A DNA stretch of 64,000 nt. It comes from Teretinema zuelzerae (GTDB lineage: Bacteria; Spirochaetota; Spirochaetia; Treponematales; Treponemataceae). The position numbers and the translations under genes were made by a program. Below, piece after piece: positions 21,213-28,707 of this stretch; position 1 is the first letter of the stretch, and the number at the start of each line of letters is the position of its first letter. The stretch covers positions 620,001-684,000 of the forward strand of contig NZ_JAINWA010000003.1 in NCBI RefSeq assembly GCF_021021555.1, read 5' to 3'. Below the pieces are notes generated by a model. It had not been told where the DNA came from. It ran no database searches and saw only the letters and a program-made list of their open reading frames with translations.

Positions 21213-21709
21213 GTGTCGCTCCGCCCGCGGGCCATCAGAAGCTTTCCGCTTCGCACGCTCTCGAGTATGCCGTATTGTTCGAGCATCAGCTGGAAGGCGT
21301 TGAGCTTCGCCGATTTTCCGGTGGCTTCGAAGGTAATTGAATCGGCCGTCAAATCCACGCTGCGCGCAGTAAAGTGTTCGGCGAGCTGCATCAGTTCGGT
21401 TCTTTTCTCTACCGGACAATCCACCTTGAAGAAGGCTATTTCGCCTTCGATGATTTCTTCCCCGGTATGATCGGCCGCGTGGACTACGTCGACGAGCTTG
21501 TCGAGCTGCCGGATGACCTGTGCGAGAATTTCCCGATCGCCCGAGGCGACGATGTTCATGCGGCTGAAAGCCGGGCGATGAGTCGGGGAAACCACGACGG
21601 AATCCAGATTGTAGCCGCGCCGGGCGAAGACCTCGGCGATGCGTATCAGGACTCCGGGACGATTCGACACCAGCAGGCTGATGCTGTGTTGTTCTTCTTG
21701 GCGATTCAT
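21209..21709 (-). CDS. ilvN: Acetolactate synthase small (regulatory) subunit
   Basis: A 166-residue ACT-domain subunit that confers valine feedback control on acetolactate synthase. The N-terminal ACT domain reads [20 protein letters not shown] and continues through [12 protein letters not shown], followed by the family segment [12 protein letters not shown]. The C-terminal region ([18 protein letters not shown]) completes the long IlvH-type small subunit. The start codon shares one base with the ilvB stop (TGATG), and its stop overlaps metH, so translation is coupled on both sides. Confidence 0.95.
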
Positions 21710-23418
21710 CAGGTGCTCCCTTTCGGTTTTTCTACGGGCCCGTCCGGTCGGGACAACAGCATGGCGCTGTATTCGGCGCCGGCCGGAATCATCGGGAAAA
21801 CGTTGTCCTCGCGGGACACTTCGGCATGGATGACGCAGGGGCCGTCGTGGTTGAGCGCGGCGGAGAGAATCGAATCGACTTCGTCGACGGAGGAAATCCT
21901 GAAGCCCTTCATGCCGTAGGCTTGGGCGAGCATCACGAAGTCCGGATTATTGTCCATCGTTACGCCCGAAAGCCGGTTGTTGAAGAATATGTCCTGCCAC
22001 TGTCTGACCATTCCGAGGTATTTATTGTCGATGATCAAAATCTTTACGGGCGTTTTTTGAAGCATAGCGGTGGAAAGCTCGAACTCCGTCATTTGAAAGC
22101 CGCCGTCCCCTACGATCGCGACGACGAGCTCTCCGGGACGGGCAAGCTGGGCGCCGATCGCGGCGGGAAAGCCGAAGCCCATCGTTCCGGCGCCGCCGGA
22201 GCTGATCCAATCCCGGGGAGAACGCGTTTTATAGAACTGGGCGGCCCACATCTGATGTTGTCCGACGTCGGTGGTTACGACGGCGTTTCCCTTGGACAAG
22301 GCGTGGATGCGGTCGATGACCATGCGGGCGGATAGCGCGTCCTTCGGATACTCGAGCGGATAGTCCCTCTTGAATCCCGTCACAGTCTCGATCCAGGCGG
22401 ACGTATCTCCGGGAGAAGCGAGCGAGAGAATCGCCGCGGCGGCTTCTCCGGCGTCAGCGTGAATGAACACATCTACCTTCACCTGGCGGTCCTGTTCCGA
22501 AGCATCGATATCGACATGGATCTTTTTCGCGTTCTTGCAAAAGGTTTTCGCGTTCCCGGTAATCCGGTCGTCGAAGCGGGAGCCTATCGACATGATGAGG
22601 TCGCAATCGCGGACTGCCATGTTCGCGTACGCGGTACCGTGCATGCCGAGCATTCCCAGGGACAGCTCATGGTCTTCCGGGAAGCAGCCCTTCCCGAGGA
22701 GGGTCGATACGACGGGAATCCGCAGCTTTTCCGCGAGGCGGCGGATTTCATCCTTCGCCCCGGAAATCAGCGCGCCGTGGCCGACGAGAAGGACGGGGCG
22801 CGAGGCGGCGCCGAGCAGTGCGGCCGCTTTTTCTACAGCGGCTTCGTCGTATCCGCTTTTTACGCGGTAGCCGGGCAGATCCATGGGAACTGAAAAATCG
22901 GCATCGATGAGGGCTGCCGATACGTCCTTGGGAACATCGATGAGCACGGGGCCGGGCCTTCCGGTAGTCGCGAGATGGAAGGCTTCTTTCATCACCGCGG
23001 GAAGGCTCGAAGCTTTTTTAACGAGATAGGAGTATTTAACGACCGGGTAGCTGATTCCGGAAACATCGGCTTCCTGGAAGGCGTCCAGGCCGAGATTCGC
23101 GGTGATCGTCTGCCCGCAGATCACGATGAGGGGAACCGAGTCCATGTGCGCGGTCAGCAAGCCGGTGACGGCGTTCGTAGCGCCGGGACCGCTGGTGACC
23201 AGAGCGACGCCGACTTTTCCCGAAGCGCGGGCGAAGCCGTCTGCCATATGGACGGCGCCCTGCTCATGGCGGGACAGGACCAGCTTGACCGGCGAATCGA
23301 TCAGGGCGTCGAACATCGGAATGTTCGCCCCGCCGGGATACCCGAAAATATGAGTCACTCCGTGCTGTTCGCAGGAAGCAAGAATCGCCTGCGCGCCGGT
23401 CATTCGTTGAGCGTTCAT
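21709..23418 (-). CDS. ilvB: Acetolactate synthase large (catalytic) subunit
   Basis: Thiamine-diphosphate enzyme making acetolactate or acetohydroxybutyrate for valine, leucine and isoleucine synthesis. 569 residues with the glutamate of the ThDP site in [14 protein letters not shown], the substrate/FAD region GGHGA-type ([13 protein letters not shown]) in the middle domain, and the ThDP-Mg motif [15 protein letters not shown] with the downstream N in [14 protein letters not shown]. Fully standard length. ATG 23418 overlaps the leuD stop by 4 bp. Confidence 0.96.
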
Positions 23419-24035
23419 CCGGGACCTCCCGCCTGATTCAAATACGGTATGCGGGAGGCGGTCCGTCCGATCTCATCCCTGTGCGAAAGCAGTTCAGCGA
23501 GGGTGTCCCAGCTTCCCGAAAGAAAATTGCTGCGGTGCGAGGGGGGCATCGAAACCGGAAAAGACGACGAACCGTAGGACACGGTCATGGAAGCGAGATT
23601 TACGGAGATCTCGAGCTTCGGGTCGGCTTCGATCGCCGACTGGAGAGCCGCGACGTCGGAAGCCGCCGCCGTTACCGCCGGCACGCCGATTGCTGCGCAA
23701 TTTCCGGCAAAAATATCGGCAAAGGATTCCCCGATAATCGCCCGGATTCCCCAGCGGGCAAGAGCCTGCGGAGCGTGCTCCCGGGAGGAACCGCAGCCGA
23801 AATTTCGGTTGACCGCGAGTATTCCGGCTCCCGCGCGGGAGCTTTCGTTCATGGGATGCTTTTTTTCAGCGCCGTCGGCATTGAACCGCTCGTCTCTGAA
23901 AGCCTGTTCGCCCAAGCCGTCGAACGTCACGCAGCGCAGAAAACGGGCGGGTATGATTCGGTCGGTATCGATCTCGTCGCCGCGCAGGGATATGGCGCGG
24001 CCGGTGACTGTTGCTATCTTTGTATCCAGATTCAT
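23415..24035 (-). CDS. leuD: 3-isopropylmalate dehydratase small subunit
   Basis: The swivelling domain of isopropylmalate isomerase in leucine synthesis, 206 residues. Conserved segments are [11 protein letters not shown] near the N-terminus, [15 protein letters not shown] in the active-site loop, and [17 protein letters not shown]. Length matches the long LeuD form that pairs with a LeuC of about 465 residues. ATGA overlaps on both sides place it in the leuC-leuD-ilvB-ilvN-metH operon. Confidence 0.95.
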
Positions 24036-25432
24036 GGCATATACTCCCGTACATCGCAGATTTCGCCACGAACCGCCGCGGCCGCGACCATGGCGGGACT
24101 CATCAGCATGGTTCTACCCGAGGCGGATCCCTGCCTTCCGATGAAATTGCGGTTAGAAGACGAAGCGGAAAGCTCTCTTCCCGAAAGCCGGTCGGGATTC
24201 ATCGCGAGGCACATCGAACACCCGGCACCTCTCCACTCGAAGCCCGCGTCCATGAAAATCCGGTCGAGGCCCTCGAGTTCAGCGGCGGCCTTCACCTGCT
24301 CCGAGCCCGGAACGACGAAGGCGCGTACTCCGGGCGCGACGCGGCGCCCCTTGAGAATTCCGGCGGCGGAGCGGAGGTCTGAAAGCCTTCCGTTGGTACA
24401 GCTGCCGATGAAGGCAACGTCGATCTTTGTTCCTATTATCGGTTTGCCTGGAGTTAATCCCATATGGGCATAGGCGGCGCGGGCCGTTTCGGCGCCGTCG
24501 GGAAAGGACTCGGGAAAGGGAAGAGAAGCGGTAACCGCGATTCCCTGCCCCGGATTGATGCCCCAGGTAACCTGAGGCTCGAGGCTTGAAACGTCGATAG
24601 ACACCTCGTCGTCGTAGCAGGCGTCCGGATCGGACGCCATGGAAAGCCAGAACTCGGCGGCTTGTTCGAAGGCCGGCCCCGAGGGAGCGAAGGGCTTCCC
24701 GCGCAGATACTCGACGGTAACGCGGTCGGGATTCACGTATCCGCATTTAGCGCCGCCCTCGATGCTCATATTGCAGAGCGTCAAGCGCCCCTCCATATCC
24801 AGGGCTTCTATCGCCTCGCCCGCGTATTCATAGGCGTATCCGATGCCGCCGTTCACGCCCAGCCGGGCGATCAGGGCAAGGATATAGTCTTTCGCGCTCA
24901 CGCCCTTGCCGGGCGCACCGGTGAACACAATCCGCCGGACCTTGGGTTTTCCGACCGCAAGAGTTTGAGTCGCCAGAACGTCCCGTATCTGGCTCGTCCC
25001 GATGCCGAAAGCGATGGCGCCGAAGGCTCCGTGGGTCGCCGTATGCGAATCTCCGCACACGATGGTCATGCCCGGCTGGGTGAGGCCCTGCTCGGGACCT
25101 ACGACATGGACGATTCCCTGTTTGCCGCTTCCCCAATTGAAAAAACGGATTCCGTTTTCCGCCGTGTTCCGTTCAAGGGCGCGCAGCATCTCCTCGGCAA
25201 GCTCGTCTTCCAGCGGGCGCGAGACGCTCCGGGTCGGCACAATGTGATCGACGGTCGCGACCGTCAAATCGGGACGGGACACGGCGCATCCGCGCTCTTG
25301 TATCATTGCAAACGCCTGCGGCGATGTTACTTCGTGAATCAAATGAAGACCGATGAAAAGCTGATCTTCTCCCGACGGCAGCGTCGCCGTGCGATGAAGA
25401 TCCCATACCTTATCCAGAAGGGTTTTTCCCAT
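24032..25432 (-). CDS. leuC: 3-isopropylmalate dehydratase large subunit
   Basis: Aconitase-family subunit carrying the [4Fe-4S] cluster; interconverts 2- and 3-isopropylmalate. 466 residues with [35 protein letters not shown] (substrate serine and first cluster cysteine region), and the cluster pair in FIGSCTNGR and GCSMCLAMN. It is the first gene of the five-gene operon; GAGGAG precedes ATG 25432 by 7 nt. leuA, leuB and ilvC are not in the window. Confidence 0.96.
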
Positions 25433-25526
25433 TCATTTCTCCTCTACAGGCCGAAGTTTGCGGCTGTCGGGAGCCAGCCTTATAGTAAGAATACATGAAA
25501 AAGTACGTGATTGTCTCGTTTCGGCG

Positions 25527-25553
25527 CTAAAAGAAATCCTGAAAACTCAGGAT
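25527..25553 (-). terminator. Rho-independent terminator of the small ferredoxin gene
   Basis: On the minus strand ATCCTGA-GTTT-TCAGGAT (perfect 7-bp stem, 25553-25536) is followed by TTCTTTTAG. It sits 43 bp after the final stop of the ferredoxin frame and separates that gene from leuC. Confidence 0.75.
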
Positions 25554-25595
25554 GTCACCGGACTACCGCGTCAGACGCGAAACCTGCCGGGATCA

Positions 25596-25766
25596 TTACC
25601 GAATCGCGCGCATCGGGCAGTACTTAATGCATTTTCAGCACCGGATGCAAAGCTTCTCGTCAATAACCGGAAGCCCAAAACCCGTTTGATGTATCGCCCC
25701 TACAGGGCAGATTCGCGCAGCGGGACATACATGATTCCCCGGGCATCGTCGTTCGTCAACATTCAT
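25596..25766 (-). CDS. Small 2[4Fe-4S] ferredoxin-like gene with an in-frame UGA codon
   Basis: AAGGAG sits 6 nt before ATG 25766. The frame reads 43 codons with CPGNHVCPAARICPVGAI and then CIRC, meets TGA at 25637-25635, and continues without frame change as KCIKYCPMRAIR to TAA at 25598. Read through, it is a complete 56-residue protein of the small anaerobe ferredoxin family, with the UGA exactly where family members have glycine (CxxCGxC). It has its own terminator. Either a GGA-to-TGA nonsense mutation (pseudogene), a sequencing error, or UGA recoded as selenocysteine. I see no convincing bacterial SECIS; only a weak GCAU/AUGC pairing follows the UGA. Confidence 0.7.
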
Positions 25767-26066
25767 ACGTTTCTCCTTGGATTTACTATTCATCGATTGT
25801 ATCTTGTTTCAAGGCAAGCTTCCGTGACGAAATCACACAGCTGCGAATGCATAAGCGCATCACTGCTACTTGAAATTTGTTTCTAATGTCACCATATTAC
25901 CTGTAAGAGGTAGCTTAAAAGAGTCCAATACCGCCGCTACCGCACGACTAGCGCATATTGCTGCGATATTCACCTTCGAGAAGATTGCCAGCATCGAGGC
26001 GGTCGGCCAAGCTGGAAAGGCCGGGATGCGGGAATGCGACATAAAAAAATAAAGGGGACAACGGAT
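25767..26066. other. Intergenic region with one unassigned short frame
   Basis: Minus-strand promoter sequence for the ferredoxin gene probably lies at 25780-25815 (TTGAAA and TACAAT words). A short plus-strand frame at 25870-26052 (TTG start, about 60 codons, ending in ARECDIKK-like sequence) has a protein-like middle (FTFEKIASIEAVGQAGKAGM) but no recognisable family and no ribosome-binding site. It could be a decayed gene. Nothing else is seen. Confidence 0.3.
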
Positions 26067-26780
26067 ATGAATAAACCGCTTGAAGGAAAAACAGCGCTCG
26101 TAACAGGATCGAGCAGAGGGGTCGGCAGACTCATCGCGAAGGGGCTTGCCGAACTCGGCTGCAGTACGGTGTTCTGCCACGGAAGGACAGAGGGCGCATG
26201 CGAAGGAGTCGCGCTCGATGTAAAGAACGCAGGAGCGCGCGCAGTCATCGCCGCCGCTGAACTGTCGAAACCGGATGAGGTCGAACGACTCGCGCAATCG
26301 ATACTCGCCTCCGGCGGAGTCGATATATTGTACAACAACGCAGCCGTCATGCACCCCTGGCGCGAAAGCGTAGGCGAATTAACAATGGAAGACTGGGCAT
26401 GGTCGTTCCAGGTGAACGTCTTCGCGCCGGCGCGCCTCACCGCTGCCCTGCTCCCGCCCATGATTGAAAAAAACTGGGGACGCATCGTCAACCTCACGTC
26501 CGGAATCGACAAAACGCCGCAGCTCGCTTGCTACGGCGCGTCGAAGCATGCCCTCGACAAGTGGACCGACGATCTTGCGGCAGCCCTCACGGGAACGAAC
26601 GTCATTGCGAGCCTCCTCGATCCGGGCTGGCTGAAAACCGACCTTGGAGGAGCGAACGCGGACAACGAGCCGGAAACGGTGTTGCCCGGCGCCCTCGTTC
26701 CGGCTTTGCTGCCGGACGGCTCCGAATCGGGACGTTTTTTCCGCGCGCAGGAACTCCGCTCCTTTACATTGCCTGAATAA
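26067..26780 (+). CDS. Short-chain dehydrogenase/reductase
   Basis: A 237-residue NAD(P)-dependent classical SDR. The cofactor loop TGSSRGVGR, the NNAAV motif, the catalytic serine (LTSG) and YGASK catalytic pair are all present, and RTEG after the second strand has an arginine typical of NADP preference. Start ATG 26067 follows a weak AAAGGGGA; the frame upstream of it is not convincing. Substrate unknown. It lies between the leu operon and ilvD but on the opposite strand, so no pathway link can be claimed. Confidence 0.88.
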   Translation: MNKPLEGKTALVTGSSRGVGRLIAKGLAELGCSTVFCHGRTEGACEGVALDVKNAGARAVIAAAELSKPDEVERLAQSILASGGVDILYNNAAVMHPWRESVGELTMEDWAWSFQVNVFAPARLTAALLPPMIEKNWGRIVNLTSGIDKTPQLACYGASKHALDKWTDDLAAALTGTNVIASLLDPGWLKTDLGGANADNEPETVLPGALVPALLPDGSESGRFFRAQELRSFTLPE

Positions 26781-26802
26781 AGGAGCCCGGAAAACGTATC
26801 AC

Positions 26803-26867
26803 GGCGTTGCTTACGCCGCGAGCCGCGAAGCATGGTTGCCGCGCCGCCGCTCGCGCAAGCGGCGGCG
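26803..26867. terminator. Two hairpins between convergent SDR and ilvD genes
   Basis: CGGCGT-TGCTT-ACGCCG (26803-26819) and a perfect 10-bp stem CGCCGCCGCT-CGCGCA-AGCGGCGGCG (26842-26867). Neither has a long T-tract, but they fill the gap between the two convergent 3' ends and probably stop transcription in both directions. Confidence 0.5.
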
Positions 26868-26874
26868 TCCTGTG

Positions 26875-28707
26875 TTACGACTCTCCGGGAAGGCGCCTGA
26901 CCGCGCCCTGGTCGGCGCTTTGAGCGAACAGGGCGTACGCCTGCAAGGCGCGGCTGACTGTCCGATCGCGGGAGACCGGGGTAAAAGCGGCAGATCCCCG
27001 CGATTTCTCTTCCGTTCTGCGCTTCGCAAGCTCTTCGGAGTCGACCATAACTGCAAGGCGCCGATCGGGAATCGAAATATCAATGAGGTCGCCGTCACGG
27101 ATGAGGGCGATGTCTCCGCCGGCTGCGGCTTCCGGACTCACGTGGCCGATGGAAAGGCCGGAGGTTCCGCCTGAGAAGCGGCCGTCCGTTATGAGGGCGC
27201 AGGCTTTCCCGAGGCCGCGGCTTTTCAGGTAGCTCGTGGGATACAGCATCTCCTGCATCCCCGGCCCGCCTTTCGGCCCTTCGTAGCGGATGACGACGAC
27301 GTCCCCCGCCTGCACCTTGCCGGAGAGAATTCCGCCCACGGCGTCTTCCTGGCTTTCGAACACAACGGCAGGGCCTCTGAACGAGAATACCGACGGATCC
27401 ACACCCGCTGTCTTCACGATCGAGCCGCGCTCGGCGATGTTTCCCGACAACACGGCCAAACCGCCGTCCGCGTAATACGCATGCGCGATATCGCGGATGC
27501 AACCGCCTGAACGGTCGGTATCAAGTTCCGCATAGCGCGAATCCTGGCTGCCCAGAACGAGATTGAACTTCCCCGCAGGCGCTGCCTTGTAAAATTCGCG
27601 GGCGGCGGGATTGGAGCCCGCGATCAGATCATAGTCACGGAGCGCTTCCTTGAGCGACGGATAGTCTACGCGCGAAACGGAGGCATCGAGGAGACCGCCC
27701 CGATCCAGCTCCGCCAGTATGCCCATGATGCCGCCGGCGCGATGAACGTCTTCGATATGATAGTGAGAGTTCGGCGCGACCTTGCTCAAACAGGGTACTT
27801 TTCGGGAAAGATGGTCGATGTCTTTCATCGTGAAATCGACTTCGGCTTCGCGGGCTATCGCAAGGAGATGCAGAACCGTATTGGTGCTGCCGCCCATCGC
27901 GATATCCAGGCTCATCGCGTTCATGAAAGCCGCCCGGGTCGCGATGCCCCGGGGAAGAAGCCGCTCGTTTCCGGTTCTGTAGTATTCCTCGGCCAGATCG
28001 CAAATACGCTCGGCCCCGCGTTCGAACAGCCGCGCGCGCTCCGCGTGGGTAGCCAAAACCGTTCCGTTGCCCGGCAGCGCAAGGCCGAGCGCTTCATTGA
28101 GGCAGTTCATGGAATTGGCCGTGAACATGCCCGAACAGCAGCCGCAGGTAGGGCATGCGCTTTCTTCGACAGCCGCGACCTCGGCGTCGCCGATGCGTTC
28201 GTCCGCGGCCGACACCATCGCGTCGATGAGGTCCAGAGCCCGGCCGCCCGAATGGCCGGCTTCCATCGGACCGCCTGAAACGAAAATGGTCGGTATGTTC
28301 AGGCGCATGGCGGCCATCAGCATGCCGGGAGTGATTTTATCGCAATTCGATATGCAGATCAGGGCGTCGGCCGTATGCGCGTTAACCATGTACTCGACGC
28401 TGTCGGCGATCAAATCCCGCGAAGGGAGGCTGTAGAGCATGCCGGAATGGCCCATCGCGATTCCGTCGTCTATGGCGATAGTATTGAACTCGGCCGCGAA
28501 AAAACCGCGCGCTTCGATGATCGCTTTCACTTTCTGGCCGACGTCGTGCAGATGCACATGGCCGGGAACGAACTGGGTAAAGCTGTTCGCAATCGCGATG
28601 ACGGGCTTGCCCATATGAGCGGCCTGCATGCCGTTTGCCCGCCATAAGGCGCGGGCTCCGGCCATTATGCGTCCTTTTGTGGTGACGTCCGATCGTAATG
28701 ATGGCAT
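26875..28707 (-). CDS. ilvD: Dihydroxy-acid dehydratase
   Basis: FeS enzyme that dehydrates dihydroxy-acids in valine and isoleucine synthesis. 610 residues with the family signatures [19 protein letters not shown] and [17 protein letters not shown] (cluster cysteines) and a C-terminal [26 protein letters not shown] precedes ATG 28707 and a TATAGT -10 word is at 28747-28742. It is monocistronic, separate from the ilvBN operon. Confidence 0.96.

Follow-up and report, generated by a model that had tools for sequence, protein, structure and literature searches.

An in-frame UGA in a small two-cluster ferredoxin gene of Teretinema zuelzerae, probably an ordinary nonsense allele

Introduction

Does a UGA codon lying in frame within the second cluster motif of a small ferredoxin gene encode selenocysteine (Sec), or does it simply stop translation? 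The question is raised by a locus of Teretinema zuelzerae, found in a stretch of 64,000 nucleotides which was analysed as a whole and is called the window here. The genome to which the window belongs comprises 3.62 Mb in 3 contigs (97% complete, 1.25% contamination). The evidence presented below favours an ordinary nonsense allele: a gene for a small two-cluster ferredoxin that has recently become a pseudogene. To this reading we assign a probability of about 0.8.

Results

The reading frame and its in-frame UGA

The frame is located on the minus strand (25596..25766) and, read from 25766 to 25596, translates as MNVDERRCPGNHVCPAARICPVGAIHQTGFGLPVIDEKLCIRC*KCIKYCPMRAIR*. It comprises 56 codons and a stop, with one internal TGA found by translation and by the genome search. 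This TGA is codon 44 (25635..25637, minus strand; context TGC TGA AAA) and separates CIRC from KCIKYCP, in agreement with the preliminary description. The strong Shine-Dalgarno sequence described there was also recovered, as AAGGAG at 25773..25778 on the minus strand, 6 nt upstream of the ATG. The eight cysteines it reported were not; seven were counted, which is also the norm of the family. With X placed at the stop, the frame scores 31.5 bits against Pfam Fer4 (PF00037; cut-off 21.1), and the nearest homologues are 65-74% identical to the read-through product (E 1e-21 to 1e-23). Judged from the Fer4 score and this homologue match, the latter far beyond chance, the frame is a real gene. The ferredoxin models of NCBIfam match it only far below their cut-offs.

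The homologue family and the residue at codon 44

A total of 80 homologue loci were found by a scan of GTDB genomes, mostly from Clostridia, Bacteroidota and Spirochaetota, 79 with the motif and one without. They represent a widespread family of ferredoxins of about 56-60 residues, to which the read-through product of the window belongs. Seven cysteines in the family spacing are the rule, and all seven are encoded in the window DNA, the last two 3' of the stop. The same features are shared with the free-standing CPxNHxCP...CP / CxxCxxCxxxCP ferredoxins of anaerobes, an unnamed family, in which the window frame has the 56 codons, the seven cysteines and the invariant N11, H12, Q27 and P33, at about 49-67% identity to intact members; it differs from them by the in-frame stop, present in the window copy only. 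N11 and H12 are invariant in the family alignment, and the first motif has only three cysteines. On the basis of this alignment, H12 might replace a fourth cysteine as cluster ligand. Our literature search returned nothing on this small ferredoxin family, only general papers on Sec.

The codon equivalent to the UGA encodes Gly in 61 of the 79 homologues, Lys in 13, Asn in two, and Glu, Leu and Ala in one each. The Gly codons are 22 GGC, 18 GGA, 15 GGT and 6 GGG. Glycine is thus the commonest residue at this site, as had been stated, but not a universal one, and a simple change from Gly to stop is supported. Neither Cys nor UGA occurs at this position in any of the 79 homologues, and no internal stop was found in the 80 loci. 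The alignment of orthologues that had been proposed as a check therefore reveals no conserved UGA or Cys; the uniform Gly expected of a plain nonsense allele was not seen either, which leaves the verdict unchanged. Within the same order, the gene was present in 11 of 394 genomes at the scan threshold, and the stop was confined to the copy of the window, where it precedes two cysteines that are invariant among the relatives.

Lysine in place of glycine at codon 44 marks a sub-group rich in Desulfosporosinus (L037, L054, L059, L061, L063, L069, L076, L085, L089, L094, L095, L111 and L113). A ferredoxin with 59% identity was also found at 2281-2448 of the phage record MT839660.1, a 4.1-kb entry named 'Bacteriophage sp.' from human faeces, which is possibly a bacterial fragment. 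No plasmid homologue was found.

Predicted structure and cluster ligands

A structure model of the read-through ferredoxin, with Gly assumed at codon 44, was obtained at pLDDT 92 and displays the ferredoxin fold. It was matched to 1fca (52 residues, VIA Z 8.6, rmsd 1.6) and 9g03_E, among others, and to ferredoxin domains found in hydrogenases and in ABCE1. The fold is common to the clostridial 2[4Fe-4S] ferredoxins (1fca, 1fdn, 1clf) and the 7-Fe ferredoxins (1h98, 1bc6). Seven cysteines would be expected of the 7-Fe type. The first motif of the window frame is C-x5-C-x5-CP in place of CxxCxxCxxxCP. Small two-cluster ferredoxins usually show cross-coordination of their clusters. We take C40, C43, C46 and C20 to be the ligands of one cluster, and C8, C14 and C50 those of the other. 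The intact protein would be expected to bind two Fe-S clusters and to act as a soluble electron carrier.

Selenocysteine machinery and the genetic code

A UGA that is set in a redox-cluster motif and flanked by conserved sequence is reminiscent of bacterial selenoproteins with ferredoxin-like domains, such as the FDH3 beta subunit (PMC12013277), in which the codon likewise lies inside ferredoxin-type sequence. Sec does occur in the order, since near full-length selA matches were obtained from seven more distant genomes, which also serve as the control of the search. However, selA was absent from all 12 genomes of the genus and from the other genomes of the family that were examined. The genes whose presence had been proposed as a check gave no better result in the genome of the window itself (97% complete): selA and selD had no match, and all matches of selB and tRNA-Sec stayed below the cut-offs. 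The best selB match (186 bits against 242) is a 427-aa frame of the size of EF-Tu, and the best tRNA-Sec match (43 bits against 47) is a tRNA-Ser with anticodon UGA; the tRNA-Sec matches below the cut-off are tRNAs for Ser, Leu, Gly and Trp. The combination of selB and selC, the signature of Sec decoding (PMC1273633), is thus not detected above cut-off here. Moreover, selenoproteins almost invariably have homologues with Cys (PMC12013277), and codon 44 does not look like a Sec site because none of the 79 homologues has Cys there. Selenoproteins of the FDH3 kind come with Sec/Cys pairs, with SECIS-like elements and with genomes that decode Sec; none of these was found for the ferredoxin gene. 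The RNA 3' of the UGA shows no structure beyond that of shuffled sequences (z +0.86 and +1.39), and a SECIS-like element was judged improbable on this ground.

Other ways of decoding the codon were considered as well. Release factor 2 (RF2) is present (503 bits; cut-off 370), and UGA terminates 21 of the 43 long ORFs of the window, where it is the commonest stop; a genome-wide reassignment of UGA was rejected for these reasons. No tRNA with a UCA anticodon was found among 53 tRNA model matches, five of which are weak and not called by ARAGORN, and a suppressor tRNA was rejected accordingly. Because the Sec machinery was not detected, RF2 is present, no UCA tRNA was found, UGA is a common stop and the following RNA is no more structured than shuffled sequences, the codon should simply stop translation. 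Selenocysteine at codon 44, which would stand beside the third cysteine of the second motif, and general reassignment of UGA are effectively excluded, the former being left with a negligible probability, and the suggestion of recoding in the preliminary description is not supported. The locus serves mainly as a caution: where the relatives lack Cys at the position and the genome lacks the sel genes, finding UGA in frame within a redox motif is no evidence of selenocysteine.

Two of the weak tRNA-like matches, one on a main contig (G000:C1:1558179-1558264) and one on the 28-kb contig C2 (G000:C2:12455-12540), have equal score and length, which suggests shared sequence through duplication, a mobile element or assembly redundancy. 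ARAGORN called no tRNA at either site.

Gene history in the genus

The ferredoxin gene was found in three of the 12 genomes of the genus, several of which are incomplete. In the window it lies between an intact leuC-type gene of the aconitase family downstream (24032..25432, minus strand, 466 aa) and a divergent, intact short-chain dehydrogenase (SDR) gene upstream (26034..26780, plus strand). The copy in genome G011 adjoins the same SDR (83% identical) and is regarded as a true orthologue because of this syntenic marker. Its second motif, LCVKCVRYCP, lacks three residues including one cysteine, so that six cysteines are left and the frame is kept (L002:1501-1659, the same locus as L041:4001-4159). 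A 9-nt deletion could have arisen there by slippage between short repeats in the DNA. Between the window gene and this orthologue, dN is 0.17 and dS is 1.3, and the substitution pattern indicates that the gene was under purifying selection before the UGA arose. Genome G006 has the same SDR with a VOC-type neighbour and no ferredoxin in the approximately 1 kb examined beyond. Within the stretches examined, no ferredoxin remnants were found beside leuC in G005, G003 and G011, or beside the SDR in G001, G004 and G006. A TGA flagged as a break within the SDR match of G001 was rejected, as it is the normal end of that gene. The ferredoxin gene looks once constrained yet dispensable in the genus, because it is kept in three of 12 genomes, its orthologue in G011 is damaged, and the dN/dS against G011 is as given above. 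That the second motif is being dismantled repeatedly (by the UGA here and by the three-residue loss in G011) because the protein has shifted its function, perhaps to that of a single-cluster ferredoxin, and not through simple decay, seems improbable to us.

Discussion

Weighing the explanations

In one alternative reading, the gene is intact in the cell and the UGA stems from an error of base calling or assembly in the draft genome. The UGA is one base away from the common Gly codon GGA, the assembly is in three contigs with 97% completeness and 1.25% contamination, and the frame is otherwise undamaged; with no decay beyond one stop, such an error is a live alternative. The lack of any other decay, which had been taken to suggest a very recent mutation or recoding, holds true for the frame, but it is weakly informative because only 12 codons come after the UGA. 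On the other side, the assembly is apparently of good quality, because 43 long ORFs tile the window and all tested neighbours are intact, and the change is a substitution remote from any long homopolymer. We regard an error as less likely than a nonsense allele and, on its own, as rather unlikely. It is more doubtful still that the gene works, either through low-level read-through of the UGA or as a 43-residue fragment with reduced function. The base directly 3' of the UGA is A, and UGA followed by A is not the strongest context for termination. Conservation remains high 3' of the stop, and the G011 orthologue has lost one cysteine of the same motif with its frame kept. Yet the UGA is kept in no relative, a suppressor tRNA was not found in the genome of the window, and the fragment would be devoid of two invariant cysteines.

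The ordinary nonsense allele fits these observations best. The ancestral gene would have encoded an electron carrier, soluble and about 56 residues long, and one base change would have converted codon 44, usually Gly (GGN) in the relatives and presumably so in the ancestor, into UGA. Termination by RF2 at this codon would leave a translated part at 25635..25766 (minus strand) of 43 residues, retaining C8, C14, C20, C40 and C43. Without C46 and C50, each Fe-S cluster would be one predicted ligand short, so that the fragment should hold neither cluster normally. We infer that the truncated ferredoxin has lost its function and that the UGA is present in the cell and no sequence artefact; a recent nonsense change is the best reading. 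If the base is real, the locus adds one more case of recent gene loss, here of a patchily kept electron carrier.

Surroundings of the gene

The gene had been credited with its own terminator, for which the signal is weak. A single terminator-like hairpin, ATCCTGA-GTTT-TCAGGAT followed by TTCTTTT, was found at 25536..25553 on the minus strand, against a mean of 0.7 in shuffled sequences; only three of its seven pairs are G-C, and folding of the terminator region gave z = -1.4. The ferredoxin gene lies within a cluster of branched-chain amino-acid genes (21709-28707). These neighbours are intact and include genes for an ilvD-type dehydratase, a TPP enzyme and aconitase subunits of the leuC and leuD types. 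The third-position G+C of 25596-25766 is 0.53, that of the neighbouring genes about 0.7, and that of the orthologues in the genus 0.77 and 0.84.
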